The position numbers were made by a program, and so were the translations under genes. Under the pieces are notes generated by a model, which saw only the letters and a program-made list of their open reading frames with translations, had not been told where the DNA came from and did not search any database. Shown here one piece after another: positions 12,681 through 58,548 of a stretch of DNA of 64,000 bases. The stretch is from Pelosinus fermentans DSM 17108 (GTDB lineage: Bacteria > Bacillota > Negativicutes > DSM-13327): the NCBI RefSeq assembly GCF_000271485.2, contig NZ_AKVN02000001.1, positions 376,001 to 440,000 on the forward strand. Reading direction: 5' to 3'. Every line of letters begins with the position of its first letter. The first letter of the stretch is position 1.

Positions 12681-12701
12681 ATGATATTGATTATCATTAT
12701 T
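12681..12701. promoter_or_regulatory. Fur box in the AraC/TonB-receptor intergenic region
   Basis: GATATTGATTATCATTATT (12683-12701) matches the 19-base consensus GATAATGATAATCATTATC at 16 positions. It lies between the divergent AraC and TonB receptor genes and implies iron repression of the locus. A nearly identical core, ATGATATTGATT-x-TCAT, reappears (inverted) in the promoter of the cysteine-rich peptide at 47108-47124. Confidence 0.75.
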
Positions 12702-12813
12702 ATAATGAGTTTGGTATTGGATGTCAAACCTTTCGACAAACTGTACTGCCATGATATTCGTGGAAAAATCGTTTGTATTCTCAGCCATCTCTGGAATAAA
12801 AATATGATGTTTT

Positions 12814-12913: not shown

Positions 12914-13027
12914 GGTATTCTATAAGTACTAGTTTTGCGCAGGGCCTTGAAGCTCAATGACTTACGGTCTTGTGGCTGAAAGCAGCTATGTGGCAATGCA
13001 TTTCCACCAGTAAAGGAGTTGACACCA

Positions 13028-43948: not shown

Positions 43949-44163
43949 AATGCTATATATTGGAATATAGCTGCTAAAGGAATTTACTTGGCTCTAATTT
44001 CCGTATAGCAGTAGTAAAAAGTGAAGAGGTGCTAGTATTCAAGATCACGTTATGACGTTTTCTATCAATATCATAAACCATTGGTATTATAACTTTGCGG
44101 TTCCCTCTTAGCTTTGTTCCGGTCATTCCGAAAACAAGCCTTGCGGTGGGAACCGCTTTTTTT
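43949..44163 (+). ncRNA. Candidate small RNA with own promoter and terminator
   Basis: TTTACA (43913-43918) and an extended TGTATAAT (-10 at 43937-43942) are 18 bases apart, with TTAATATTAA (43921-43930) in the spacer. The transcribed stretch has no convincing reading frame. It ends in GCGGTTCCC (44097-44105) paired with GGGAACCGC (44148-44156) and seven T residues, a strong terminator. Inside the terminal loop GTTCCGGTCATTCCGAAAAC can fold further. The length (about 215 nt) and layout suit a regulatory RNA. I could not assign it to 6S, tmRNA or RNase P. The rest of 43770-44258 holds only the preceding terminator. Confidence 0.45.
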
Positions 44164-44258
44164 GTTATCCAGCAGGTAAGGGGGGCGTTTCAGTATAGCC
44201 TGGGGAGGAAGTTTGTAAAATTTAAAACCGACCATGAGGTCGGCTGGCTGCACTGCTC

Positions 44259-44579
44259 TTAAGTTATATCTGCTAAGCTTTTTCCAATTGCTCTTAAAGC
44301 TTCTTTCTGGTCTGGAGTTAAAGTTTGCGCAAAGCTAACCAGATGACTGACGAGAGGCTTCATCTGGTCTGGCAGTTCAGTTGCTTGGTCAGCGAAAAAA
44401 TCAGCTAGACTTATTCCCAGACCAGTACATAATTTACTTAAAGAATCAACGGTTGGCTGTTTCTCGCCTAATTCTATTTGCCGAACAAAACCTTGTGATA
44501 ATCCTGATATAGTTGCAAGTTTATTTATTGTATACCCTTTTAATTCACGTAGTTCTTTAAGACGTTTTGCGGTATCCAT
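44259..44579 (-). CDS. XRE-family HTH regulator (106 residues)
   Basis: The helix-turn-helix occupies residues about 6-60 (LKELRELKGYTINKLATISGLSQGFVRQIELGEKQPTVDSLSKLCTGLGISLADFF). The C-terminal half (about 65-106) includes SFAQTLTPDQKEALRAIGKSL. ATG 44579 behind AAGGTGG is preferred to the longer frame from 44726. Small XRE proteins of this kind are often repressors of mobile or stress loci. A TAATATTA sequence lies just upstream (44634-44641), like the boxes in front of the neighbouring XRE gene, so both may bind the same operator. Confidence 0.8.
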   Translation of the reverse strand: MDTAKRLKELRELKGYTINKLATISGLSQGFVRQIELGEKQPTVDSLSKLCTGLGISLADFFADQATELPDQMKPLVSHLVSFAQTLTPDQKEALRAIGKSLADIT

Positions 44580-44728
44580 TTTCAACCACCTTAAAAAATA
44601 GTTCGATAGTATGATAGAGCGTATTTGTTTGGATAATATTAATTCCATAGCTTGACTAGCTAATTCTATAGAGTTAACATAGAGGTTAGAATATTGATAG
44701 AAATACTGAAAACAGAGAGGTAACAATG

Positions 44729-45076
44729 TTACCTCTGAGTCGCCGCTGGAAGTTCCCCATGGTTAACAATGAGTTTAACTACATTATAAATTAATTGAAG
44801 CCTTTCTGGCGGACAGTCCCGTAAAAGACTTGCCAGGTCAGATTTAAGATAATCCTGGGTTTGATAAGCCACGCCGGCAAGGAAATAGCCAGGGTCTGTA
44901 TCCAGCAAGCCTGCTATGCGTACCAGCATTTCCAGATTGATTCTAGTTTTACCGTTTTCAACCTGACTAATATAGACCGAGGAAACGTCTAACTTTTCCG
45001 CAAGTTTTTCTTGCGTGAAGTGTTTTTTGCGAATTTTTCTAATTCGTTGCCCAATAGCAATATAATCTATATTCAT
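44729..45076 (-). CDS. XRE-family HTH regulator (115 residues)
   Basis: Residues about 8-62 form the HTH (IGQRIRKIRKKHFTQEKLAEKLDVSSVYISQVENGKTRINLEMLVRIAGLLDTDPGYFL). The C-terminus (about 75-115) includes LLRDCPPERLQLIYNVVKLIV, a pattern common in small Firmicute regulators. It is transcribed leftward like the next regulator. The intergenic region to the right contains three TTAATATTAA palindromes (45091, 45134, 45171), probable operators for this protein or its neighbour. Confidence 0.85.
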   Translation of the reverse strand: MNIDYIAIGQRIRKIRKKHFTQEKLAEKLDVSSVYISQVENGKTRINLEMLVRIAGLLDTDPGYFLAGVAYQTQDYLKSDLASLLRDCPPERLQLIYNVVKLIVNHGELPAATQR

Positions 45077-45090
45077 TTACATCACCTAGT

Positions 45091-45180
45091 TTAATATTAA
45101 CATAACAGGAAAAAATTTACATACTTTTATTGATTAATATTAACTGATAACTTAAAAAATAATTCATAGGTTAATATTAA
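45091..45180. promoter_or_regulatory. Three TTAATATTAA palindromes
   Basis: Exact copies lie at 45091-45100, 45134-45143 and 45171-45180, in the divergent region between the XRE gene and the rightward small genes. Another exact copy sits in the candidate small-RNA promoter (43921-43930) and a near copy at 44634-44641. The clustering suggests a local regulon of the XRE proteins. Confidence 0.6.
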
Positions 45181-45263
45181 TCACTGTAGAATGTCTTTAA
45201 TGATGGGGGGAAGAAAAATCAAATTATATATATTACAAGAATGTCCAATTTTTAATCTGAAAA

Positions 45264-45380
45264 TTGGAACGATTGCATAAAGGGGTAAGAGTCACAACAG
45301 AGATTTTTAAGCAAATTGAAACGACGCTGGGGGATTTTATCGCTCAGAAGGAGTTCAAGAACGGTGGGGAGGATAAATGA
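45264..45380 (+). CDS. Possible 38-residue protein coupled to the next gene
   Basis: A TTG at 45264 opens a 38-codon frame (VRVTTEIFKQIETTLGDFIAQKEF in its middle) whose TGA abuts the ATG of the next gene. The residue pattern is protein-like and helical. No strong ribosome site precedes it; a second in-frame TTG lies nine bases on. Coupling to the CBO0543-like gene is the main support. Confidence 0.4.
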   Translation: MERLHKGVRVTTEIFKQIETTLGDFIAQKEFKNGGEDK

Positions 45381-45929
45381 ATGAATTATCCGTCTGACGA
45401 ACAACTCGCAGAAATGATGCGTCAATTAACTCAAGCTCGAATTGAAAATTTCCTGGGCCAGCATATTGGTACCTGGAGATGGTGGGTTCTTGTTATATTA
45501 CTGATTGCTCCCTGGTTTATTTGGTATAAATTAGTCGATAAAAAGAGGATTCTCGAAGTTACCCTGTTCGGGGTAATCATTATGGTATTTACAATTACAT
45601 TGGACGAAATGGGTTTCGTGCTCTCCTTGTGGAGTTATCCGGTAGAAGTTATCCCAATACTTTCCCGGCTTACTTCGATCGATTATACGATGCTGCCAAT
45701 TATCTTTATGCTGGTATACCAGTACTTCTCAACCTGGAAGCGTTTTTTAGGGGCGCTGGTTGTCCTATCAACGGTATTTTCATTCGTGGCCGAACCTATT
45801 GTTGTATATTTTGGATTTTACGTACTGCTTAAATGGTTGTACTGGTATTCATTCCCTATTTATATCATTATGGGCTTACTGGCAAGATGGATAGTTAAAA
45901 GGTTGATTGACATAGAACGAAAAGGTTAG
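45381..45929 (+). CDS. CBO0543-family membrane protein
   Basis: A 182-residue protein with about five membrane helices after a hydrophilic start. WRWWVLVILLIAPWFIWYKLVDKKRILEVTLFGVI, the DEMG sequence in TITLDEMGFVLSLWSYPVEVIP, and IDYTMLPIIFMLVYQYF match the CBO0543 membrane family, which is common and uncharacterised in spore-forming Firmicutes. GGGGAGGA gives a strong ribosome site. It lies downstream of the TTAATATTAA boxes and so may be in the XRE regulon. Confidence 0.75.
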   Translation: MNYPSDEQLAEMMRQLTQARIENFLGQHIGTWRWWVLVILLIAPWFIWYKLVDKKRILEVTLFGVIIMVFTITLDEMGFVLSLWSYPVEVIPILSRLTSIDYTMLPIIFMLVYQYFSTWKRFLGALVVLSTVFSFVAEPIVVYFGFYVLLKWLYWYSFPIYIIMGLLARWIVKRLIDIERKG

Positions 45930-45990
45930 AAAAAATTGCAATTATTGCTTTAGATTACATGAGACAGAGGGCAGGTTAAGCCAGTGTTTT

Positions 45991-46890
45991 TCAAGTGCTA
46001 ACTGATAATTTTGCTATTTTTAAAGCGCTCTCCATACTTTTAGTTGATGCTATAAATCCTGCTTTGTGACAAAATATCGCATCATCTATCTTAATGATGG
46101 AATTGATTTCTTCACTTGATTTTCCTCTAATGGATTCTAATATATCTTTTCTTGCTTCGAAAGTATCGGCATTTTTCTTTACAGACTGAATCTTATATTC
46201 TGCATTGGTCTCATCTGGAGAAATAACGAACAATATTTCACTATTTACATCGATTTTAAGCAGCTGCTGGAGCCAGGGGCAACCGTTTTTTAAAACCATT
46301 ATTTCATTAATAGTTCTATTTTCAAAGGCTTCATTTACTATGATCCTTGCTTTTATAACAGAAACCTGTCTGCTTATTATTCTTTTTATAACCTCAGTAG
46401 CATATTGAACAGCTTTTTCAAAAGCCTCATCTATGGAATCATTTGAATCCCATGTAGGATTAAAATTTTGGATAATATCACTTATTGAAGTGACTTTAAT
46501 GTCTGATTTTATATCTATGCCATTATCTGTAGCATCAATCCCCTGCACTAAATTTTTATCAACAGAATCAAAAATTGAGATGATATCATTTTCTTCAAGC
46601 TGAGAATCAAACTTTTGTATTATTCTTGAACCAAACTCTCTCCAGATTAAACCACAAGCAGCATACGGAATATTATTTTCTCTTATTTCTTTATTTAGTT
46701 GGTGATGATCGAATTCTCCCAAGGATATGTCATAAACAAGATCTAGAGTTCTAAGTATATTTTCATCTCTTGTTCTTGTTACCTTTATATCGCCGAGCAG
46801 TAACCTGAACATAGCGGTAGCCATAACATCGTCTGCATGAAATTTCCCGCTATGTGTTCCTATCGTTTTAATATTCTTTTCATTAATCAT
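45991..46890 (-). CDS. MYG1/UPF0160-family metal-dependent hydrolase
   Basis: A 299-residue protein of the MYG1 family. The N-terminal signature THSGKFHADDVMATAMFRLL (about residues 12-31) and GEFDHHQ (about 58-64) carry the histidines and aspartates of a DHH-like metal site. C-terminal HKAGFIAS is also conserved. Eukaryotic MYG1 is a 3'-5' RNA exonuclease; bacterial members are untested. The ATG lies at 46890, with AAAGGGTAAATA upstream on its strand. Not part of an operon. Confidence 0.85.
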   Translation of the reverse strand: MINEKNIKTIGTHSGKFHADDVMATAMFRLLLGDIKVTRTRDENILRTLDLVYDISLGEFDHHQLNKEIRENNIPYAACGLIWREFGSRIIQKFDSQLEENDIISIFDSVDKNLVQGIDATDNGIDIKSDIKVTSISDIIQNFNPTWDSNDSIDEAFEKAVQYATEVIKRIISRQVSVIKARIIVNEAFENRTINEIMVLKNGCPWLQQLLKIDVNSEILFVISPDETNAEYKIQSVKKNADTFEARKDILESIRGKSSEEINSIIKIDDAIFCHKAGFIASTKSMESALKIAKLSVST

Positions 46891-47067
46891 TATTTACCCT
46901 TTCCTATTCGAATTAATTATTGCGATTCACTATTTATAGTATCAATATAGTATAGCATTGTTTAGGCAAATCCTATTCAACAATATGAATTCTGGCAGGT
47001 TCTTTGATCTTGATTTATCATGGGGATATGGTTATTGGCACTTATTTTTTTATTTATTAAAAAAGTA

Positions 47068-47124
47068 TTGACCTTTCCTGATAATAGGTGTATATTTAAA
47101 TCAACAGATGAGAATCAATATCAT
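47068..47124 (+). promoter_or_regulatory. Promoter with Fur-like box before the cysteine-rich peptide
   Basis: TTGACC (47068-47073) and TATATT (47091-47096) are 17 bases apart. Just after the expected start point lies ATGAGAATCAATATCAT (47108-47124). Its reverse complement agrees at 16 of 17 positions with the Fur box in front of the TonB receptor (12681-12697). This implies shared metal-dependent repression. Confidence 0.65.
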
Positions 47125-47160
47125 TTGAAAACAAAATATACATTTTAGGAGTTGAACAAT

Positions 47161-47247
47161 ATGAAAATTTTCTATAAAGAATTTGATGATTGTTGTGAAT
47201 GTTGTTGTTGTTGTTGCTGCGAGAGCGAAGAAGAGTGTTGTGAATAA
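47161..47247 (+). CDS. 28-residue cysteine-rich peptide
   Basis: ATG 47161 has TAGGAG at 7-base spacing. The product begins MKIFYKEFDD, then CC-E-CCCCCCC, then ESEEE-CC-E and stops: 11 cysteines, seven of them consecutive, in an otherwise acidic peptide. I know of no named family with this pattern. It has its own promoter with a Fur-like box and is on a transcript of about 340 nt ending in a terminator at 47413-47449. A metallothionein-like metal buffer, a metal-sensing leader peptide or a modified peptide precursor are options; the acidic and Cys-rich make-up favours metal binding. Confidence 0.65.
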   Translation: MKIFYKEFDDCCECCCCCCCESEEECCE

Positions 47248-47278
47248 GCTGACTGTATAGTTAGTGGAGGTGAGTCCA

Positions 47279-47320
47279 GTGTTTAAAGATGTTGATGAAC
47301 TAATGATTGATACGTTCTGA
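47279..47320 (+). CDS. Possible 13-residue peptide after the cysteine-rich peptide
   Basis: GGAGG lies 8 bases before GTG 47279, which opens a 13-codon frame ending in DELMIDTF. A third unit, GAGGAGGT before TTG 47393, encodes only six residues (47393-47413). Serial strong ribosome sites with tiny frames suggest remnants of a decayed operon or regulatory leader peptides. Confidence 0.3.
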   Translation: MFKDVDELMIDTF

Positions 47321-47412
47321 TTCTTAGTCACGTTGGATAGTGAAAACACCAATAACCAGAACCTGTCAATGAATTGAGGAGGTAAAAGATACTTGAAAAC
47401 AGAATGTAATTG

Positions 47413-47449
47413 AAAGCTGCCTTTGAAATAGAAGGTAGCTTTTTTTGTA
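47413..47449 (+). terminator. Terminator of the cysteine-rich peptide transcript
   Basis: AAAGCTGCCTT (47413-47423) pairs with AAGGTAGCTTT (47432-47442), with a run of seven T residues. Confidence 0.8.
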
Positions 47450-47604
47450 TTCATTAAAATATTAAAAATATAAATAGCAATTTTAATATGACATACTGTT
47501 GTCCTATTTTCTTATGTACAATAAAGAAAAAGCATAATTGGGAAGACTAAAAAACATGATCAATTATTATGCAAATAAAATATAAAATAAAGGAGATATA
47601 TATC

Positions 47605-48027
47605 ATGAGTACAAAGCTGCTAGAATCTAGTGCAATTGATTTCACCGCGGCAAGCGAGCGCGCCGTGCGTGTGCGCAGTCTTTACCAACAGCTTGAAGAA
47701 AGCAATCACAACGGTGTGTGGACCACTGAAGAGGATATGCTTGCTTTTGCCACCGATATCGGCGCTCTCGGCCGCCTGGTCATGGCCGCTGAAGGACGAT
47801 GGGTATATAACGGAGAAGTGCAGCCTGACCTTAGGTCTAAACTTGCGGAATGTCTCTGGTGGATACTGGTGCTGTCCGACCGTCTTGGAGTCGATATTAC
47901 TGAAGCGTTCACGTCATTCATTGACAGGCTTGATAACGATCTTACAAAAAGCGTAGCAGCTACATCCATACAAGAAGTAGCAAAAACCAATGATTATCCT
48001 CACCGCCCAAGTTTCCGGAACCTTTGA
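47605..48027 (+). CDS. MazG-like nucleotide pyrophosphohydrolase family protein
   Basis: A 140-residue all-helical protein. DIGALGRLVMAAEGRW (about residues 50-65), DLRSKLAECLWWILVLSDRLGVDITEAFTSFIDRL (about 74-109) follow the MazG-like order, in which E/D residues of successive helices bind magnesium and an NTP. Typical EExxE motifs are weakened (the first reads LVMAAEG), so activity is uncertain. ATG 47605 follows AAAGGAG. A terminator shared with the convergent gene follows. Confidence 0.7.
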   Translation: MSTKLLESSAIDFTAASERAVRVRSLYQQLEESNHNGVWTTEEDMLAFATDIGALGRLVMAAEGRWVYNGEVQPDLRSKLAECLWWILVLSDRLGVDITEAFTSFIDRLDNDLTKSVAATSIQEVAKTNDYPHRPSFRNL

Positions 48028-48142
48028 GGGGAGTCCGATCCCACTTGAGTTTCACTTCACTATCAATGACGATAAGATTATCATGTTGAGCATTCGACTA
48101 GCTTGTTATTGATGATTAAAATATAGAAGCTTTAGCATCTAT

Positions 48143-48199
48143 AAAGAGAAGCTGCCCATAATAATTTACGAACTAAGTTATTATGGGCAGCTTCTCTTT
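48143..48199. terminator. Strong bidirectional terminator
   Basis: Arms of 22 bases (48143-48164, 48178-48199) pair perfectly, with A-rich and T-rich ends, between two convergent genes. Confidence 0.85.
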
Positions 48200-48227
48200 T
48201 ATTTGACATACCTGTCCCTGTTTCCCA

Positions 48228-48815
48228 TTAATCCTCCACATCTGTAAGCCAGCGCTTTTCAAACACAGGCGGCTCATATGAATCAATATAATCTAGAGCA
48301 GAAGAAATATCCCCTGTCACAAAGTAGAGTTCACTGCATTCTATTTTTGCAAATTGCTGGCAAATGACCTTCCCAAAATGTTCCAGCAGTTTGTCATAGA
48401 AATGATTGATATTCAAAATGACGATTGGTTTATTATGATACCGCAGCTGTTTTAATGTTATTATTTCCAGAATTTCTTCCAAGGTACCGTATCCTCCGGG
48501 TAATGCAATAAACGCATCGGAGCGTTCGTCCATGATTGCCTTTCTCTCCCGCATGCATTTTGTCACAACCAGTTCATCACACCTGTCATATACAATTCCC
48601 TTGACATGTAATGCCTCCGGGATGATCCCTATAACATGCCCATGGTGCTGATGCACCGATCGGGCGCAGGCCCCCATAAGACCGGTAAGCCCGCCGCCGA
48701 AAAGAAACAGATCTCCTTTCGCTGCGATTTCACGTCCCAGAGCTGAAGCTGCATCGAAATAAACCGGATCGATAGCCGCACTGGAAGAACTATATACACA
48801 AATAACCTTATTCAT
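48228..48815 (-). CDS. LOG-family phosphoribohydrolase-like protein
   Basis: A 195-residue protein of the LOG (TIGR00730) family. The signature PGGYGTLEEILE (about residues 105-116) and an upstream MRERKAIMDERSDAFIAL region form the nucleotide-binding site. Plant LOG enzymes release cytokinin bases from riboside monophosphates; bacterial ones hydrolyse AMP-like nucleotides. ATG 48815 has AGGAGAAGG upstream. It follows the RlmN-like gene, also leftward, by about 50 bases, so the two are probably co-transcribed. Confidence 0.9.
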   Translation of the reverse strand: MNKVICVYSSSSAAIDPVYFDAASALGREIAAKGDLFLFGGGLTGLMGACARSVHQHHGHVIGIIPEALHVKGIVYDRCDELVVTKCMRERKAIMDERSDAFIALPGGYGTLEEILEIITLKQLRYHNKPIVILNINHFYDKLLEHFGKVICQQFAKIECSELYFVTGDISSALDYIDSYEPPVFEKRWLTDVED

Positions 48816-48862
48816 CGATACCTTCTCCTATTTTGCCAAAGTATAAGAAGCTCAAAAACATT

Positions 48863-49720
48863 TTATACTACCATCGTTTGTTTTAACTGCCCACATCCGC
48901 CCTGGATATCACTGCCGAAGTTATGGAATATCTCCGAGTCTATAGCTGTACTTATTGTATTATAAAATTCTAAAACTTCCAACCGTCCCGATGGTATCAA
49001 GCCCTGTATATTATTTTCATTATATTGGGAAATAATCAATTTCATAGGCTTACCCTCCAGAAGATCTGTAAGCCTTCTAATATCCTCTGCCTTGCCATTG
49101 AAGTCCCTAAACAGCATATATCGTATCCGCACCTTTACACCAAAGGCTATTGCATAATCGGTTGCAGCCTGAATAATCTTATACATGCTGTACCTTTCGG
49201 TCATGGGAATAATCAGACGTCTTTGATCATCAGAAGATGCATGAAGAGAAATATTCAAGCGGATAGAAATATCAGTTCCCTGAAAGTCTTTGATTAGTTC
49301 ATATATTTTCGGAACAATTCCTACCGTAGCCAGCTCAAAATGACTGATACCTAAGCGGGAGCGCATCACCAGAATCGCAGCCTTTACCTGTTCATAGTTT
49401 AGCAGCGGTTCCCCCATACCAGCAAAAACCACTGCATCAATTGGTACAGTCCGGGCATTTTCACGGGTTGAATTACATACATCTACCTGTCCGACGATTT
49501 CCTTCATAGAAAGATTTCTTGTGAATCCCTGCTTTCCTGTAGCGCAAAACCTGCATCCCATGCCGCATCCAACCTGGGAGGAGACACAGACCGTATTGTG
49601 AAAAGTCAATTGACGCTTTTCATCAAACATGTATAGCGTTTCTATCGTGTTTCCGTCCTCCAACTCCATTAAGTACTTTTCGGAATGATCTTGGCCGATT
49701 CGTTTTCGTAATACCTTCAT
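48863..49720 (-). CDS. Short RlmN/Cfr-like radical SAM methyltransferase
   Basis: A 285-residue radical SAM enzyme. The cluster motif CxxxCxxC is Cys52, Cys56 and Cys59 (VGCGMGCRFCATG). Two further cysteines correspond to those that act in RNA methylation by E. coli RlmN (118 and 355): Cys45, seven residues before the cluster, and Cys276 in GGCGQL. GMGEPLLN and SLHASSDDQRR are also conserved. The usual N-terminal helical domain of about 90 residues, which contacts RNA in RlmN, is missing. It is therefore a distinct paralogue; modification of adenosine C2 or C8 in an RNA is expected, target unknown. The ATG follows AGGATGAC. Confidence 0.85.
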   Translation of the reverse strand: MKVLRKRIGQDHSEKYLMELEDGNTIETLYMFDEKRQLTFHNTVCVSSQVGCGMGCRFCATGKQGFTRNLSMKEIVGQVDVCNSTRENARTVPIDAVVFAGMGEPLLNYEQVKAAILVMRSRLGISHFELATVGIVPKIYELIKDFQGTDISIRLNISLHASSDDQRRLIIPMTERYSMYKIIQAATDYAIAFGVKVRIRYMLFRDFNGKAEDIRRLTDLLEGKPMKLIISQYNENNIQGLIPSGRLEVLEFYNTISTAIDSEIFHNFGSDIQGGCGQLKQTMVV

Positions 49721-50196
49721 ATGTCATCCTCCAGTAATAGAACTGATATTAGCAACAGAGAAATTTTCTTACTGCAATTACAGCGGCGGGACTGCACAGG
49801 ATTTGTATCTGCTGTCCTTTTAATCAATATAATATTGACACCTGTATGGTAAAGTATTCAATTATTTCAATTTTACTATAAAACCACCCATGCTTATATA
49901 TAAAAAAACTATCAATTGTTGTACTATTTTTTACAAGGTCTTGGCAAGCTTACCTGGACAGCCTCCGAAATCTGTCCCTTCTTCTGCCGACTTTTTCAGT
50001 GGTTTTTAACGTCCCAAAGTGTCACATGTGCCATCACTGTCCTATGAATTGGACGTGACGATAGAAATTACCGAAATTTACAACTCATAATTAGTGCCCT
50101 AAAGGGGCATAGTTGTAATGATTCTAATTTTACCAGCAGTATCGTATGGAATAAACGATACTTACTTTTTAATCTTTGATTGTCTTTGGGAGGCCT
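49721..50196 (+). other. Intergenic region upstream of the glucan synthase
   Basis: No gene is seen. The stretch from about 50010 (AAAGTGTCACATGTGCC) to 50060 (GGACGTGACG) has GTCAC/GTGAC and GTCC/GGAC pairings, which could fold as a bulged hairpin or be a decayed repeat. GGGAGG precedes ATG 50197 at 4 bases. Confidence 0.4.
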
Positions 50197-53100
50197 ATGC
50201 TTTTAAATACAGAACAACTCCGACAAAAAGCTCATGAGCTTGCATTGACCCATAACCCTTATGTGAGACGCTTACCATCAAAGCGCCTGTGGCGGGAGTT
50301 TTATGCCGACATCGAAAAATTACGCACGTTTATTACCACTCTGCAGGAAGGTGATGCAAGTTGTTTGCAGCCCGCAGAAGAATGGCTTTTGGATCATGCT
50401 GAATTCATTGAAGAACAGGTGATGGTTGTCCGTCATCAGCTTCCTGGTGCCTTTTTGCGAAATCTGCCCGATTTACGCAAGACAGACAAAGCAAGGATAC
50501 TGTCTATTTGTGCTGATTATATTGAACATGTGGACGGGAACCTGGATGAGGATTCGTTCATCTCCTATGTGAATTTTTACCAGGAAGTATCCGTTTTGAC
50601 CATAGCAGAAGTGTGGGCGGTTCCGCTTATTTTGCGTATCGCTTTAATCCAGCGCCTGGCCGCACTCATGGAACTGGTTCGCGAACGGCGAGAGGTGTGT
50701 ATCGTAGTCGATGGGCTGCTGGCACGCCTGCAGTCGGCGAAGTTAAACCCTGAGGTACTAAAGGATGCCCTTGAAGAAGCTGGTCAGGATATGCTGCTCT
50801 CCGGCTGCCAGATCGCCTACTTGGTCAGGCGTCTGCGCGAGTGGGCGGACGATTCGACAACCGTGAGGGAATGGCTAATGTGTAAATTAGAAAATGGACC
50901 CGACAGCCTTGACCGAATTGTCTCTTATGAGTATCAGCTTCAGGCAGCCCATCAGGTATCAACAGGAAACCTTATGGGAAGTCTGCGTAAAATATCACGC
51001 TTGGACTGGCAAGAGCGGTTTGAACAGATTTCTATGGTTGAGCGTACGCTGCGTGGAGAAAGCACAAATACATATCAGTTTCTTGATTTCTCAAGCCGCG
51101 ACGTGCTGCGTAAGCGGGTTGAGAAGTTGGCCTCCCGCCTGCATTTGCCGGAAAATCTAGTGGCGCAGCAGGCTGTCGGGCTTGCTGGGAAGGAATATGA
51201 GCAGGCGTGTACAGAGCGTGCAAAAGTAGTTGAAGCAGTACGCGGTCCGGTTATGCTGGAAGAACTGCCTCGCAAGGTATTTGCCGCATACTATCTGCTT
51301 GAAGCCGATGGCATCAAGGAACTGCGGCAGGCGCTAAAGATCTGCGGCGCTCCTGCGTATTTACCCGAATTGGAAATGCTGCGCCGCTCTACTGGTACAT
51401 ATTTTACCGCCCTGACAGGATTATTCACGGTTTTCCTTCTTGGAATTGCCTGGTGGGTATCCAGGGGCACAAGCTTTACCGTCGGTCAGTGGGTGATCGT
51501 TATACTGGCGCTGTCCTTGCCCGTGAGCGAGTGGACCATTACGGCTGCACACTGGCTTATAGAATGCGTCAGGCAGCCACGACCGCTGCTCCGATACGAT
51601 TTCTCCCGGGGTGTTCCACCGGAAGCAACCACAATGGTGGTTATACCCGTTATTTGGTCAACGGTCAAAGAAGTGGAGGAATTGGCGGATCGGCTGGAAC
51701 TGCACTACCTGGCAAACCGCTATTCGAATATTCATTTTGCTCTCCTGGGGGATTTTACCGATGCAGGAGAGGAAGAACTGCCGGAAGATGCTGCTATTCA
51801 TGCTGCAGCCCGGGCAAGCATTGAGGCATTAAACCGCACATACTCCGATTCAGGCGAGAGCATTTTTCACCTCTTTCAGCGCCGCAGGATGTGGAACCCG
51901 TCCGAGGGAGTATGGATGGGGTGGGAACGCAAGCGGGGTAAATTGGTGGAATTTGTCGAGCTGCTTAAAGGCAAGACAGATACGACCTATGATTTTGTAG
52001 TTGGAGACACAGACATCTTGCCCCGTATCCGTTACATCATCACCCTTGATGCGGATACAGAGCTGCCCCTGGAAAGCGTGCAGCGGATCATCGGCACCAT
52101 GCATCTTCCCTATAACCGGCCACGGCTAAACCTCACCCGGACAAGAGTTGTCGAAGGATACGGCGTACTGCAGCCGCGTATCGGCATTAGCCACGACGCG
52201 GCCTTGCGCTCGCGCTTCGCTTATCTGTGGTCGGTGAATCCGGGAATTGATCCCTATGTCTTTGCTGCCTCCGATCCGTACCAGGATGGGCTGGGGCAGG
52301 GAATATTTACGGGGAAGGGTATATTCGATGTTGATGCATTTGCTCAGGTGTTATGCGAGCGCATCCCGGAAAACCGGGTGCTTAGTCACGATTTGTTAGA
52401 AGGTGGATTTTTACGCGCCGGCCTACTGTCGGATATCGAATTAATTGATGAGCATCCAGCTGTGTTCAGTGCCTATCAAAAGAGAATGCACCGCTGGGTG
52501 CGCGGGGACTGGCAGCTCATTCCATGGCTGCTGCACAGTGTGCCTGACCGTCGGGGAACCTTTCTGCCGGTTGATTTATCCTCTCTCACCCGTTGGCAGA
52601 TCATTGACAATTTACGGCGCAGTATACTGCCTCCTGTGTACCTGGCAGTACTGCTCCTTGGGATGAACGTACTGCCAGGTGCTTCCGGCCGCTGGATTGT
52701 CTTTATGGTCGCTACCTTGCTGCTGCCGTTACTTCGCCAGCTGGTGGCGGTGAGGTGGATTATTGGTCATCCACGGAGTTTTTTTGGTACAGCCGCTCAA
52801 GTTTTGGTAAACATAATGACGATGCCGTTTCAAAGTGTGCTTCTGTTGGACGCAATCGCCAGAACTCTGTACCGTTTAGTTGTGACAAAACGTCATTTAC
52901 TGGAATGGGTGAGTGCGGCGGAGGTTGAACGCAGGCAGCAGGGCGGGCGCTATCCAGTGTTGCTGGGAATGTACGGAGGGTATGGAGTAGTGTTTCTTTT
53001 TGTGCTGGCAGCAGTGAATAGTACCGTTCCGGCTCTGGGGTGGACAGGCCTGGCATTTTGCACTTTATGGGCCATTGCTCCTTTGGCGGTCCGCTGGTTG

Positions 53101-56100
53101 AATCGCCCTGTACAGCAGTCTGAGACCCCGCTTACCGCAACTGAGCAGGAAGAGCTGCAAAAACTGTCAGGACAGATTTGGACGTTCTTCGAAGATTACG
53201 TTACGGAAAAAGAGAATTGGCTGCCTCCTGATAATGTTCAATTGGAGCCGCCTAACGGAATCGCTCACCGCACTTCGCCGACTAACATCGGACTTTACCT
53301 TACCTGCACACTGACTGCGCGGGATTTTGGGTTTATCGATACACCCGGTTTGATCGAGCGCTTGGAGCGTACGCTTGGCACAGTGGAGCACCTGGATAAA
53401 TGGAAAGGTCATCTTTATAACTGGTACGATACTGTCACGTTGGAGCCGCTGCCGCCGCTGTACGTGTCAACGGTGGATTCCGGCAATCTCGTTGTCGGTT
53501 TGGTAGCCGTCAAAGAAGGGGTAGCGGAGTGGCTCAAGTCCGATCTGGAAGGGGATGGCTGGTCAGGTGAAGTCCACGGTAAGACGACAGAAGCATTAGA
53601 TGTTGCTTTCGCTGAAGAGTTAGCTCCTGTACGAAAAGGGGAAGCTAAAGACCAATACGGAACATCATCCCAGAGCGTCCGGGAGGAATGGCTTTTTCGC
53701 GGGAAAAAACTGCTTGCCCGCCTGGAAGTGCTGATCAATGAGACGGACTTTCGTCCGCTTTATGACCATAAAGCGAAATTGTTCCACCTGGGCTACAACG
53801 CAGGGCCGGGTAAACCTGATCCAATCCTATATGACCTGATGGCGTCAGAGGCTAGACTGTCAAGCTTTATTGCCATTGCTCTCGGTCAGGTATCCGTGTC
53901 GCACTGGCATGCCCTCGGTCGGACAATGACCCGGGTGGGAAGACGAACCACGCTGCTCTCTTGGTCTGGGACAATGTTTGAATACTTAATGCCATGGCTG
54001 TTTATGCGCACCTATCCGAAAACCATCTGGGACAGCACCTACCGTGGGGTGGTTCAGCGGCAAATGGAGTACGCCCACCAGCGGGGAGTTCCTTTTGGCA
54101 TCTCTGAATCCGGTTATTATGCCTTTGATCATCAGATGAACTATCAATACCAGGCGTTTGGTGTTCCCGGTCTGGGTTTCAAACGTGGTCTCGAGCAGGA
54201 TTTGGTTGTGGCACCCTACGCCACAATCCTTGCCTTACCCTTTGCCAAGGATCAAGGACTGCTGGATTTACGCAAGCTGGATGAACTTGGCGCCCGGGGA
54301 AAATACGGCTACTTTGAAGCCATTGATTTTACGTCTGGGCGACTGCCGAAGAAGCAGGCCAGTACAGTCATCCGCAGTTTTATGGCCCATCACCAGGGAA
54401 TGAGCCTGATCGCACTTGCTAATTTGCTGGCACCGAGAACAATAACCGAGCGCTTTCACCGTGACAAGCGGGTACGAGCAGCGGAACTGCTTCTGCAAGA
54501 ACGCACTCCAGCACGGCCTAATATTATTAAACATCCTGCTATGGTACGTGAATATGTGTCTTATAAGAAGTCGACAGAGATGGTCACGCTGCGGGAATAC
54601 CCCAGTGCAGACACGCTTGCACCCGAGGTGTGCGTTCTGTCAAATGGGACATTTACGACCATCGTGACCAACAGCGGCAGCGGGTTCAGCCGTTACGAAG
54701 GCCTGGCCGTTTCCCGCTGGCGGGAGGATCCGGTATTGGACAACTGGGGAAGCTATCTATATATTCGTGACGTTACCCGGGATGTGGTATGGTCGCCGGC
54801 GTTTCAGCCCTGCCGTGTCCAGTCTGATGAACAGCGTGTGCAGTTTGCTCTTGATCGGGCCACCTTCATGCGTGTGGACGAAGACGTGCAGACAAGCCTG
54901 GAAATATGTGTATCGCCGGAATGGAATGCTGAAGTCAGGCGGCTGACGCTTACGAATAACGGAAATGAAGAGCGGATCATGGAAGTAACAACCTTTCTTG
55001 AACTGGCTCTGGCATCTCCTATGGCCGACGATGCCCACCCGGCTTTTAGTAAATTGTTCATCAAAACAGCATATGTTGAGGATGCCCAGTGCTTGCTGGC
55101 CCGGCGCAGGCCCCGCCGGGACGGCGAAAAATCATTATGGGCGGCCCATTCTCTGCTGACCCCAGGACGAACCCTTGGATCAGTGGAATATGAGACCGAT
55201 CGATCCAGCTTCGTAGGCCGGGGACATACCCTTGCATTACCCATGGGAGTCCGTTCCCGCTTAAAGGGAACGGTAGGTTCTGTGGCCGATCCTGCATTTA
55301 TCATGCGGCGGCGGATGAGCATCAAGCCTGGTGAACAGGTGCAATTGTTCGCTGTTACTGCTGTGGCTGGCACGAAAGAAGAGGCGTTGGACATTGTCAG
55401 CCGCTTCGCTGGAGACCTGGTAGTGGAACGAACATTTCAACTGGCCTGGAATCGCAGTCAAATCGAATTTCAGCACTTGCATTTGACTGCTGCTCAGGCT
55501 ATGGCTTTTCAAGCTTTCGCTGGCCGGATTGTGTATACTCCGATGCTGCGGCGGGAGCGTGCGCAAAGTATCTTGTCGAATGTAAAAGGGCAGTCCGATC
55601 TCTGGGCATACGGAGTTTCCGGCGATGTGCCGATGATTCTGGTACGGATCGAGAACCGGGCCAACATACAGTTTGTGGTCAATCTGCTTACCGGGCATGA
55701 GTATTTGCGCCGCCTGGGGTTGCTTTTCGATCTGGTTATTCTGAACGAATCAGCGGGAGGCTACCAGCAGGATTTACAGGAGGCACTGCGGCGAGGGGTT
55801 GAACAAGTCGTTGGCTGGCACAGCCCGGGCGGGATTTCTATCATAAGTTCCAGTCAACTTTCTGAAGAAGACAGAACGCTGCTTCTAGCCACCGCACGTG
55901 TTGTACTCAGGGCAGACGGTCCCAGCTTTCAGGCGCAGTCCAGTCTGCTGCGGAGGGCTGTGGTTTTTCCGGCGCCTCTCAAGCTGACGGCGCCAGTAAA
56001 AAGGTTCCCTGAGCCTGCGCTAGAAAATGGGGAAGATTTATTATTCTTCAATAGTTGGGGAGGATTTTCACCCGATGGCCGGGAGTATCGGATTGTACTT

Positions 56101-58548
56101 AAAAACGGCAATTATCTGCCGGCACCATGGATCAATGTGCTTGCCAATCCCCGTTTTGGCTGCCTTGTCTCCGAACTGGGCACGGGCTACACCTGGTGGC
56201 AGAGCAGTCGTGAGTACAAGCTCACCCCATGGTCTAACGATCCTGTGCTTGATCCGCCGGGCGAAATATGTTATCTGCGGGATGATGAGAGCGGCGAACT
56301 GTGGTCTGCTGTACCAAAACGAGGGGACGCCGGGCAGGCGGACGGGTCTTCTATCTTAGGCTATACCGTAACCCATGGCAGGGGGTTCACTTGTTTTGGT
56401 CACGAGGAACACGGTATCAGGTCCGAAATGACGGTTTTTGTTCCCCTCGATGACCCTGTCAAAATTATTCAGTTGCGGCTGCAGAATAAAAGTGCCGAGC
56501 AGCGGCAGCTTTCCATCACCTATTATGCGGAATGGGTACTGGGTGTACAGCGCTCCTCCAATGCTTCTTTCATCATCACGGAGTGGGATGACTCTGCCCG
56601 GCTGCTGCTGGCACGTAATGCGTATCAGAAAGAGTTTCATGGGACTTACGCCTTTTTGGGTGTATATTCCCAAACAAAATCTTCTGTCAGACAATCGGTT
56701 TCCATAGAAGTTGAAGCACAGCCGAACACCGATTTCGGCGATGTATCCTGGACGGCAGACCGCAGTGAATTTCTCGGCCGCAATGGTACCTGGGAAAATC
56801 CGGCAGCTATGAACCGGGAGAGTCTTTCAGGCCAAACAGGACCGCTTTATGATACGTGCGGCGCGGTACAGAACAAGCTTATACTGGAGCCTGGGGCCGA
56901 GCAGATGATCTACATCCTGCTCGGTGCGGAACATTCCCGGGACGCCGCCGTGAAGCTGGCTAAAAAGTACAACCAATCCCAAGTTTGCGATCAATCCTTA
57001 GAACATATACATGAATTCTGGGATGGTGTTTTAGAACAAATCTCGGTTTCCACGCCCTGTCCGGAGATGGATTTACTAGTAAACGGCTGGCTCTTGTACC
57101 AGGCTCTTGGCTGCAGAATGTGGGCACGTTCCGCCTTTTACCAAGCGGGAGGCGCATACGGCTTTCGCGATCAATTGCAGGATTCTCTGGCACTTTTGCA
57201 TTCCCGCCCCGATTTAACGCGAGCGCAGATTTTGCTGCATGCCGCGCATCAATATGAGGAGGGCGACGTGCAGCACTGGTGGCATGAAGAGACGCAGCGC
57301 GGCATTCGCACACGTTTCTCCGATGATTTAATGTGGTTGCCCTATGCAGTCGCACGGTATGTCGAGCATACAGGAGACCGCGGTATACTGGAAGAGGTGG
57401 TACCCTTTCTGTATAGTGAACCTTTATCGGCGGGTGAACATGAACGATATGAGCCGACCCAAATTTCTGCTCAAAACGGCACGATTTTTGAACATTGCTT
57501 ACGTGCCATTGACAGGGCTGTGCAGCGCTTTGGCGAGCACGGGCTGCCGCTGATCGGGATCGGCGACTGGAACGACGGTATGAGTCATGTCGGCGCTGAA
57601 GGCCGCGGTGAGAGCGTATGGCTTGGTTGGTTTCTCTGTGACGTGCTAAATCGGTTTGCGGATTTATGCCGGCAGCGCGGTGCTGTAGAGCAGGCAGAAC
57701 GCTGCCTGGACATATGCAGGCAATTGACAGCCTCTCTTGATCAGCATGCCTGGGACGGACAGTGGTACCGGCGGGCTTTCACTGACGCCGGACAATGGCT
57801 GGGTTCTATCTATAACGAGGAGTGCCGTATTGACGCCATCGCCCAGTCATGGTCGGTTATTTCAGGGGCGGCGCCACAAGAAAAGGCACTGCAGGCAATG
57901 CAGTCATTCGACCGTGAACTGGTGGACCGGGATCTTTCGGTTGTGCGTCTTTTAACACCGGCTTTTGACAGCACAGATCCGAGCCCCGGCTATATTCAGG
58001 GCTACCCGCCCGGTATCCGGGAGAACGGAGCCCAGTATACTCATGGCGTTATCTGGAGTATTATCGCCTGGTGCGGGCTTGGCAACGGAGATAAGGCTTT
58101 AGAATTATTCCAAATGTTAAATCCTCTCAATCACACACGCACACCTAATGAAGTACGGCAGTATGCGGGCGAACCCTACGCCATTGCGGCGGACGTTTAT
58201 ACAGCGGAGCCGCACCGGGGGCGCGCCGGCTGGACGTGGTACACTGGTGCTGCCGGATGGATGTATCAGGCGGGAGTTGAATCGATTCTCGGCCTTCGTC
58301 GCCGTGGTGACCGCCTGTACATTTGCCCGTGTATTCCTTGCGAATGGCCAGGGTTTTCCGTCAGCTACCGTTTTGGTAATAGCTCCTACCATATTACTGT
58401 TGAAAATCCGTCCCATAAGTCCGTTGGTGGGATTGCTTTACAAATTGATGGACAGGAAGTTGTACTTACGGAGCGAGATATGAAGGATGGTCCTTACGTT
58501 ATAATGGGCGATGACGGGCAGCCCCATCACGTTGTTATGACGATGTAA
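50197..58548 (+). CDS. Cyclic beta-1,2-glucan synthase (NdvB/ChvB family)
   Basis: A 2783-residue multidomain enzyme, close to the roughly 2800 residues of ChvB. An N-terminal domain and membrane helices (first near residue 405, others about 435-460 and 810-870, 920-990) frame a GT84 glycosyltransferase domain: LDADTEL (about 616), GQGIFTGKG and the Q/RxxRW-type RWVRGDWQ (about 766). A glycoamylase-like domain follows (ESGYYAFDHQMNYQYQ, MAHHQGMSLIAL, about 1300-1410), then carbohydrate-binding and GH94 phosphorylase-like modules with the catalytic GIGDWNDGM (about 2452-2460). The product would be a cyclic osmoregulated glucan sent to the periplasm. The gene is G+C richer than its surroundings. 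ATG 50197 was chosen for its GGGAGG. Confidence 0.93.
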   Translation: MLLNTEQLRQKAHELALTHNPYVRRLPSKRLWREFYADIEKLRTFITTLQEGDASCLQPAEEWLLDHAEFIEEQVMVVRHQLPGAFLRNLPDLRKTDKARILSICADYIEHVDGNLDEDSFISYVNFYQEVSVLTIAEVWAVPLILRIALIQRLAALMELVRERREVCIVVDGLLARLQSAKLNPEVLKDALEEAGQDMLLSGCQIAYLVRRLREWADDSTTVREWLMCKLENGPDSLDRIVSYEYQLQAAHQVSTGNLMGSLRKISRLDWQERFEQISMVERTLRGESTNTYQFLDFSSRDVLRKRVEKLASRLHLPENLVAQQAVGLAGKEYEQACTERAKVVEAVRGPVMLEELPRKVFAAYYLLEADGIKELRQALKICGAPAYLPELEMLRRSTGTYFTALTGLFTVFLLGIAWWVSRGTSFTVGQWVIVILALSLPVSEWTITAAHWLIECVRQPRPLLRYDFSRGVPPEATTMVVIPVIWSTVKEVEELADRLELHYLANRYSNIHFALLGDFTDAGEEELPEDAAIHAAARASIEALNRTYSDSGESIFHLFQRRRMWNPSEGVWMGWERKRGKLVEFVELLKGKTDTTYDFVVGDTDILPRIRYIITLDADTELPLESVQRIIGTMHLPYNRPRLNLTRTRVVEGYGVLQPRIGISHDAALRSRFAYLWSVNPGIDPYVFAASDPYQDGLGQGIFTGKGIFDVDAFAQVLCERIPENRVLSHDLLEGGFLRAGLLSDIELIDEHPAVFSAYQKRMHRWVRGDWQLIPWLLHSVPDRRGTFLPVDLSSLTRWQIIDNLRRSILPPVYLAVLLLGMNVLPGASGRWIVFMVATLLLPLLRQLVAVRWIIGHPRSFFGTAAQVLVNIMTMPFQSVLLLDAIARTLYRLVVTKRHLLEWVSAAEVERRQQGGRYPVLLGMYGGYGVVFLFVLAAVNSTVPALGWTGLAFCTLWAIAPLAVRWLNRPVQQSETPLTATEQEELQKLSGQIWTFFEDYVTEKENWLPPDNVQLEPPNGIAHRTSPTNIGLYLTCTLTARDFGFIDTPGLIERLERTLGTVEHLDKWKGHLYNWYDTVTLEPLPPLYVSTVDSGNLVVGLVAVKEGVAEWLKSDLEGDGWSGEVHGKTTEALDVAFAEELAPVRKGEAKDQYGTSSQSVREEWLFRGKKLLARLEVLINETDFRPLYDHKAKLFHLGYNAGPGKPDPILYDLMASEARLSSFIAIALGQVSVSHWHALGRTMTRVGRRTTLLSWSGTMFEYLMPWLFMRTYPKTIWDSTYRGVVQRQMEYAHQRGVPFGISESGYYAFDHQMNYQYQAFGVPGLGFKRGLEQDLVVAPYATILALPFAKDQGLLDLRKLDELGARGKYGYFEAIDFTSGRLPKKQASTVIRSFMAHHQGMSLIALANLLAPRTITERFHRDKRVRAAELLLQERTPARPNIIKHPAMVREYVSYKKSTEMVTLREYPSADTLAPEVCVLSNGTFTTIVTNSGSGFSRYEGLAVSRWREDPVLDNWGSYLYIRDVTRDVVWSPAFQPCRVQSDEQRVQFALDRATFMRVDEDVQTSLEICVSPEWNAEVRRLTLTNNGNEERIMEVTTFLELALASPMADDAHPAFSKLFIKTAYVEDAQCLLARRRPRRDGEKSLWAAHSLLTPGRTLGSVEYETDRSSFVGRGHTLALPMGVRSRLKGTVGSVADPAFIMRRRMSIKPGEQVQLFAVTAVAGTKEEALDIVSRFAGDLVVERTFQLAWNRSQIEFQHLHLTAAQAMAFQAFAGRIVYTPMLRRERAQSILSNVKGQSDLWAYGVSGDVPMILVRIENRANIQFVVNLLTGHEYLRRLGLLFDLVILNESAGGYQQDLQEALRRGVEQVVGWHSPGGISIISSSQLSEEDRTLLLATARVVLRADGPSFQAQSSLLRRAVVFPAPLKLTAPVKRFPEPALENGEDLLFFNSWGGFSPDGREYRIVLKNGNYLPAPWINVLANPRFGCLVSELGTGYTWWQSSREYKLTPWSNDPVLDPPGEICYLRDDESGELWSAVPKRGDAGQADGSSILGYTVTHGRGFTCFGHEEHGIRSEMTVFVPLDDPVKIIQLRLQNKSAEQRQLSITYYAEWVLGVQRSSNASFIITEWDDSARLLLARNAYQKEFHGTYAFLGVYSQTKSSVRQSVSIEVEAQPNTDFGDVSWTADRSEFLGRNGTWENPAAMNRESLSGQTGPLYDTCGAVQNKLILEPGAEQMIYILLGAEHSRDAAVKLAKKYNQSQVCDQSLEHIHEFWDGVLEQISVSTPCPEMDLLVNGWLLYQALGCRMWARSAFYQAGGAYGFRDQLQDSLALLHSRPDLTRAQILLHAAHQYEEGDVQHWWHEETQRGIRTRFSDDLMWLPYAVARYVEHTGDRGILEEVVPFLYSEPLSAGEHERYEPTQISAQNGTIFEHCLRAIDRAVQRFGEHGLPLIGIGDWNDGMSHVGAEGRGESVWLGWFLCDVLNRFADLCRQRGAVEQAERCLDICRQLTASLDQHAWDGQWYRRAFTDAGQWLGSIYNEECRIDAIAQSWSVISGAAPQEKALQAMQSFDRELVDRDLSVVRLLTPAFDSTDPSPGYIQGYPPGIRENGAQYTHGVIWSIIAWCGLGNGDKALELFQMLNPLNHTRTPNEVRQYAGEPYAIAADVYTAEPHRGRAGWTWYTGAAGWMYQAGVESILGLRRRGDRLYICPCIPCEWPGFSVSYRFGNSSYHITVENPSHKSVGGIALQIDGQEVVLTERDMKDGPYVIMGDDGQPHHVVMTM

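Follow-up and report, generated by a model that had tools for sequence, protein, structure and literature searches.

What might a free-standing bacterial gene do when its product consists largely of cysteine and acidic residues? The question is raised by a short locus in the 64-kb stretch of Pelosinus fermentans DSM 17108 DNA analysed here, which we call the window and to which positions refer unless another genome is named. The predicted product of its first reading frame (ORF1), MKIFYKEFDDCCECCCCCCCESEEECCE, is an acidic peptide of 28 residues, including 11 Cys, 9 Asp/Glu and 2 Lys, with no evident signal sequence; an alternative TTG start three codons upstream of the ATG would add MNN. Elsewhere in the window, none of the six frames has as many as four Cys in succession. 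The preliminary description had claimed a short unit with promoter, ribosome site and terminator, encoding a 28-residue peptide with 11 Cys, seven of them consecutive, and all of these elements are present (Table 1).

A scan of 1.2 kb gave 10 promoter-like sites (5.1 expected from shuffles), among which this promoter shares the top rank with one other. Among the 11 copies of the locus described below, the weakest promoter is that of the Pelosinus genome G001 (TTGATT/TATAGT). The terminator lies about 165 nt past the ORF1 stop and consists of a 13-pair stem (47412-47443) with a T tail; two such sites were found compared with 0.4 expected. A terminator-like hairpin occurs in all 11 copies, with a short T run in G001.

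Table 1. Predicted features of the locus, in window coordinates.
Feature	Position	Strand	Remark
Sigma-70-type promoter, TTGACC-17-TATATT	47068..47096	+	recognisable in 11/11 cassette copies
Palindromic operator CAGATGAGAATCAATATCATTTG	47105..47127	.	Fur-box core TGAGAATCAATATCA at 47109-47123
Shine-Dalgarno AGGAG of ORF1, 5' of ATG	47147..47151	+	sequence
ORF1, 28-residue peptide	47161..47247	+	11 Cys, seven consecutive
Intercistronic stretch	47248..47274	+	3' end is the ribosome site of former ORF2
ORF2 remnant	47279..47320	+	GTG start, 13 codons, TGA
Rest of former ORF2	47321..47403	+	cysteines lost; gaps of 1, 4 and 1 bases vs relatives
Intrinsic terminator	47412..47446	+	

All 11 Cys are kept in two Pelosinus relatives (G004 and G007), in which the codons change silently. 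Comparison of the window with G007 gave 7 silent changes on 9.3 sites and 3 replacements on 74.7 sites (Fisher p 1e-6), that with G004 gave 3 silent and 2 replacement changes on about 9 and 75 sites (Fisher p 0.008), and G004 with G007 gave 6 and 3 (p 2e-5), the three pairs being mutually non-independent. Judged by these codon changes, ORF1 is a real coding frame under selection in Pelosinus, more than a chance frame. Four copies from three genomes of family f23 differ by 0-1 silent and 1-5 replacement changes in six pairs (p 0.23 to 1), and because these changes are mostly replacements, the selection on ORF1 is demonstrated for Pelosinus only. Two overlapping frames were considered and rejected. 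The +1 frame (25 amino acids, 47183-47260) is open in both G004 and G007, where the TGT/TGC changes would be Val-to-Ala replacements in that frame; therefore, the selection signal belongs to the Cys frame. The antisense ORF of 117 codons (47101-47454) is broken in both relatives.

The cassette DNA was searched against 60 relatives, and matches were obtained in six genomes: the genome itself, G004 (93% identity to the window), G007 (85%), G001 (77-80%, in two pieces), G041, where the match covers promoter and terminator pieces, and G057. The G057 match (29 bases, E 9e-4) falls on Cys codons only and was not taken as related. G002, G008 and G009 gave no DNA match to this query, and G003, G005 and G006 carry other sequence and no cassette at the same place beside a MYG1-family gene. 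In G001, the cassette is on the opposite side of the MYG1-family gene; it has no Cys run, and its ATG is shifted into another frame by a base gap. The cassette is dispensable, because several genomes of the genus are without it. Frame conservation in close relatives, which had been named as decisive for the peptide, is found in G004 and G007 with all 11 Cys, but other Pelosinus genomes do not have the frame.

Searching 380 genomes of the class with an ORF1 profile gave strong matches in seven (eight copies, E 5e-10 or better), namely the genome itself, G004, G007, G106, G110 (twice), G126 and G146, and weak matches in eight. The short-ORF search proposed in the preliminary description thus finds strong relatives, but the Cys run is confined to the three Pelosinus copies; the five f23 copies that have ORF1 show a gapped Cys/Glu pattern. 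None of the eight weak matches (E 0.015-0.095), and none of four weak matches to the profile of the second frame introduced below (E 0.0008-0.01), amounts to a short Cys/Glu frame that opens with a start codon. The weak matches in G291 and G317 have KxFFKxLDNCYxxC in common, and the Cys/Glu tail is absent from them. A single-sequence ORF1 search of 200 genomes of the class added to the three Pelosinus copies only G157 (E 0.13) and G006 (E 0.999), which were unrelated on reading. The pattern CC[DE]CCCCC, scanned through 84,980 species genomes, occurred in at least 118 stretches, at 122 places among the matches listed. Also among the matches listed, 18 places are frames of no more than 60 residues with a start codon; the G004 and G007 copies (L090 and L162, the latter cut by the locus end) account for two, and the other 16 short frames look mutually dissimilar.

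Comparison with these relatives indicates that the Pelosinus peptide is half of a two-peptide cassette, a new point that the first reading of the DNA had missed. The relatives encode a gapped Cys/Glu-rich version of ORF1 and/or a second peptide, ORF2 (VCEESRCDSEDTSCPEHCELVEK). The G041 cassette has the same promoter and terminator and, between them, a second short frame, MKKEDDKRKVEEVLVCEESRCDSEDTSCPEHCELVEKNVPEK, whose TTG start is read here as M. Searched against 300 genomes, this sequence matched 28 at E up to 1, including six strong ones (5e-14 or better; G041, G106, G110 with two copies, G114, G126 and G146), and the next best had E 0.003. Two-frame transcripts are predicted in G106, G126, G110 and G146, with an ORF1 such as MKILYKEFCNCCEVCCEFYNCCECEEECECSE and an ORF2 such as MYKEDDKRKTDEVLVCEESRCDSEDTSCPEHCELVEKTEKIVP. 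The f23 ORF1 aligns with the window peptide across the N-terminus and several Cys, and in this second family the Cys/Glu richness and the N-terminus MK(I/T)(L/F)(Y/F)KE(F/L) are kept.

Intact ORF2 in the f23/f31 relatives encodes 39 to 43 residues with the spacing C-x3/4-C-x6-C-x2-H-C, and its four Cys and one His are kept in 7/7 copies. The ORF2 profile matched strongly in 6 of the 380 genomes of the class (seven copies, E 1.4e-22 or better) and weakly in 4. Of ten pairs, the four that include G106 show selection on ORF2, with 6-8 silent and 5-6 replacement changes on about 24 and 108 sites, respectively (p 0.0003 to 0.009); p is 0.029 to 1 in the remaining six, which are close copies. ORF2 had no match on plasmids (tblastn), and its profile none in viral contigs and none in a phylum sample (0/398 genomes), a list that holds no known carrier and so provides no positive control. 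A fold prediction for ORF2 (mean pLDDT 72, pTM 0.34) was not used. In all four Pelosinus copies ORF2 has decayed: the start and ribosome site remain, gaps against the related copies produce a premature stop (in the window, TGA at 47318-47320), and its cysteines have been lost. Conversely, the ORF1 stretch is missing in G041, and G114 retains there only a seven-codon frame without Cys. Because each frame persists in some lineages without the other, overlapping roles are suggested.

The operator suggests when the cassette would be expressed. The 23-mer starts 8 nt past the -10 element in all 11 copies, and its core differs from the Fur box TGATAATNATTATCA at 2 of 14 positions in the window, G004 and G007 and at 1 in G001. 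A site with up to two mismatches arose in 0.4% of 4,000 simulated 64-nt leaders of intergenic composition. The genome itself contains 133 such sites compared with 71 for the reversed control; the site alone is therefore weak, and its place at the promoter adds weight. A longer motif, AATGANAATNATTNTCATT, gave 30 sites in the same genome, including that of the window, compared with 10 control sites. At most one mismatch was found at 23 sites of the genome, of which 20 were taken as loci and searched for nearby ORF starts. Seven ORFs beside such strict boxes, a biased choice since they were picked by eye, were all assigned to the family expected of them: FeoA, Peripla_BP_2, ferritin, two TonB plugs, rubrerythrin and Fe/Mn superoxide dismutase. 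Other strict boxes adjoin dehydrogenase-like, mutase-like or porin-like ORFs, which have no plain iron link, or no ORF start. Fur control of the cassette is likely in Pelosinus on the basis of these motifs.

The Fur box is not kept outside Pelosinus, where all seven copies, from the two other families f23 and f31, have 4-6 mismatches; the 23-mer remains a palindrome there, with a symmetry of 7-8 of 11 compared with 8-9 in Pelosinus. Fur boxes at up to one mismatch number 18 in G146, 14 in G126 and 19 in G041, compared with 7, 10 and 4 in the controls, and two perfect boxes adjoin FeoA/FeoB-like ORFs (by eye) in non-Pelosinus relatives. By these counts, the strict Fur box is in use in f23/f31 genomes, although the cassette operator departs from it. 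Besides the f23 cassettes, the f23-type palindrome (0 or 1 mismatch) was found at one further site each in G106 and G110. At operator positions 6 and 18, a symmetric G-C to A-T change fits a changed regulator or a change in its preference; an alternative is that the palindrome forms an RNA hairpin at the 5' end. The iron-regulon box claimed in the preliminary description thus stands for the four Pelosinus copies and is not kept in the seven others.

Similar sites were also observed away from the cassette. At window 12682-12702, two overlapping Fur-box-like sites (TGATATTGATTATCATTATTA) lie upstream of a TonB-receptor-plug protein starting near 13019, and the divergent ORF is AraC-like by eye. 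In G041, a Fur box with one mismatch (C1:1286013-1286027) precedes the cassette by about 1.3 kb. A near-identical site, CATATAATAGANNGTATTAATTA, occurs in G146, G126 and G110 away from the cassette (L240, L245 and G110 C71:64499-64521). In G291 and G317 (genus g65; L197 and L200), CTTGATAATTGTTATCA followed by the -10-like GCTATACT forms a common Fur-box-like promoter.

The reading that we put first, tentatively and with somewhat less than even confidence, is that the locus is a free-standing iron-starvation (Fur) response gene for a cytoplasmic microprotein that buffers metal through thiolates. When iron is scarce, Fur would leave the operator just 3' of the -10 element, and the short mRNA would be made. 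Translation of ORF1, presumably in the cytoplasm, would yield the 28-residue acidic peptide, whose 11 thiolates and 9 carboxylates may bind metal ions in a small cluster. The peptide would then buffer thiophilic metals that enter through de-repressed, unselective iron importers; alternatively, it may hold ferrous iron for delivery, and buffering is chemically the likelier of the two. On this reading, the ancestral transcript made two acidic Cys peptides. Family searches gave no name to the product: window ORF1 matched no family in Pfam up to E 0.1 or NCBIfam up to E 1, and so no curated metallothionein family in those scans; f23 ORF1 matched none in NCBIfam, and window ORF1 and ORF2 none in Pfam, NCBIfam or PHROG. 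The ORF1 profile matched no PDB chain up to E 1, and two PDB matches for ORF2 (E 0.82 and 0.83), erythropoietin and chance, were rejected. No literature on this peptide was found among the matches listed by a search that mostly excludes subscription journals.

A bolder extension, which we regard as possible but doubtful, includes both frames. The cassette, with its two acidic Cys peptides, would represent a new class of paired metal-starvation microproteins, one Cys/Glu-rich (condensed to seven consecutive Cys in Pelosinus) and one with C-x4-C-x6-C-x2-H-C. Since either acidic Cys peptide can be lost, their shared job would be thiolate metal buffering. If so, the Pelosinus form would be among the smallest and most Cys-dense natural metal-cluster peptides.

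Next after the metal-thiolate buffer, and unlikely in our judgement, ranks a role in which the peptide or the RNA itself would tune other mRNAs or proteins in iron sparing, as the Fbp microproteins and FsrA RNA do in Bacillus. The free-standing unit with its Fur-type operator and own terminator would suit such a role, as would the intercistronic 27 nt, which rank first in conservation among six segments in both G004 and G007 (27/27 each, compared with 82/87 and 77/87, respectively, for ORF1) although ORF2 is dead. In G001, this stretch is 24/27 identical and the terminator is equally conserved (32/36). The transcript folds better than 99/100 shuffles (z -2.58, terminator included). However, the conserved stretch is just 27 nt long, and its short hairpin CTGACTGTATAGTTAG was seen by eye only and is absent from the consensus fold of the 11 copies, in which covariation contributes little (-0.77 of -21.01 kcal/mol) and only the terminator convinces as conserved RNA structure. 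Rfam gave no match at gathering scores in window 44000-50000. The Fbp proteins, according to PMC7430163, are small, Fur-regulated and suggested to be RNA chaperones; they are also basic, whereas the ORF1 peptide is acidic.

Somewhat less probable still is that the Pelosinus locus is a decaying relic, with ORF2 dead, ORF1 lost or broken in other strains, and a Cys run that would have grown by trinucleotide slippage, as TGT/TGC units could. The decay of ORF2 in 4/4 Pelosinus copies, the broken G001 copy and the absence of the cassette elsewhere in the genus are consistent with this, and the overall rate of change of the ORF2 remnant does not exceed that of ORF1 (120/129 and 112/128 identical). 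Against it, ORF1 shows an excess of silent changes, with 11/11 Cys kept while codons change, and the promoter, ribosome site and terminator are intact in three genomes.

The neighbouring genes bear on two readings offered in the preliminary description. The gene after the cassette is an ORF without a named family in the window and G007, transporter-like fragments in G004 and a transporter in G041; it is convergent in G001, one G110 copy and G114, and others occur elsewhere. Among the 11 copies, only the window and G007, and G110b and G146, have a downstream gene in common. Because this gene is not conserved between lineages, cis control of a neighbour is unlikely, and since the lineages have no neighbour in common among the nearest ORFs, which were named mostly by eye, the product probably works alone. 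The 140-residue ORF shared with G007 (window 47605-48027) had no match in Pfam (E up to 0.1) and none in NCBIfam (E up to 1). In G041, the following gene looks by eye like an intact major-facilitator transporter, which the G004 fragments directly past the terminator resemble (39% identity over 51 residues); with two cases, this adjacency may be chance. Further along, window 50176-58548 is a single ORF of 2790 codons, and its product looks like a cyclic beta-glucan synthase type protein.

Improbable on these grounds is that ribosome stalling at the Cys run senses the supply of cysteine or Cys-tRNA and controls the terminator or the downstream gene. The seven consecutive Cys codons and the distance to the terminator would allow it, and polycysteine attenuators do exist, reportedly in mycobacteria, as work by Canestrari from 2020, cited in PMC13236596, is said to describe. 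The claim is weakened by the differing downstream genes, which argue against an attenuator; there is no conserved downstream operon, the consecutive Cys codons are not conserved in the f23 orthologs, and a terminator-like hairpin is present in every copy. The least probable reading, that ORF1 and/or ORF2 encode the precursor of a peptide that is modified and exported, draws on their small size, Cys richness and the nearly invariant ORF2 core, but found no support, as the nearest ORFs of the 11 contexts share no modifying enzyme or exporter (named mostly by eye, with family scans in the window) and a transporter-like gene is adjacent only in G041 and, broken, in G004.

If the metal-thiolate buffer is correct, some anaerobic Negativicutes would respond to a lack of iron with microproteins that bind metal and are too short to be picked up by ordinary gene calling. 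Polythiolate cluster chemistry would gain a ready test case in this natural 28-mer, with its seven consecutive cysteines, and that ORF1 and ORF2 are lost reciprocally offers a direct genetic test of shared function.

Among known systems, the mycobacterial leader ORFs are likewise short with consecutive Cys codons; they precede the operon they control, whereas ORF1 has no downstream gene conserved between lineages. Bacterial metallothioneins of the SmtA/BmtA type are short and Cys-dense, with Cys spaced as CxC/CxxC, and are not known to have a run of seven. ORF1 resembles them in length, Cys density and presumed metal-thiolate chemistry, and differs in its run and in having no Pfam/NCBIfam match. 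FbpA, FbpB and FbpC of Bacillus subtilis, which go with the sRNA FsrA, are very small Fur-regulated proteins, as the Pelosinus cassette would encode, and differ from the acidic, Cys-rich ORF1 peptide in being basic, as PMC7430163 describes them. MntS of Escherichia coli is a small protein of the metal-starvation response that helps to manage intracellular metal, according to PMC4361602; compared by this description, its metal is manganese where that of ORF1 would be iron, and the two resemble each other in logic.
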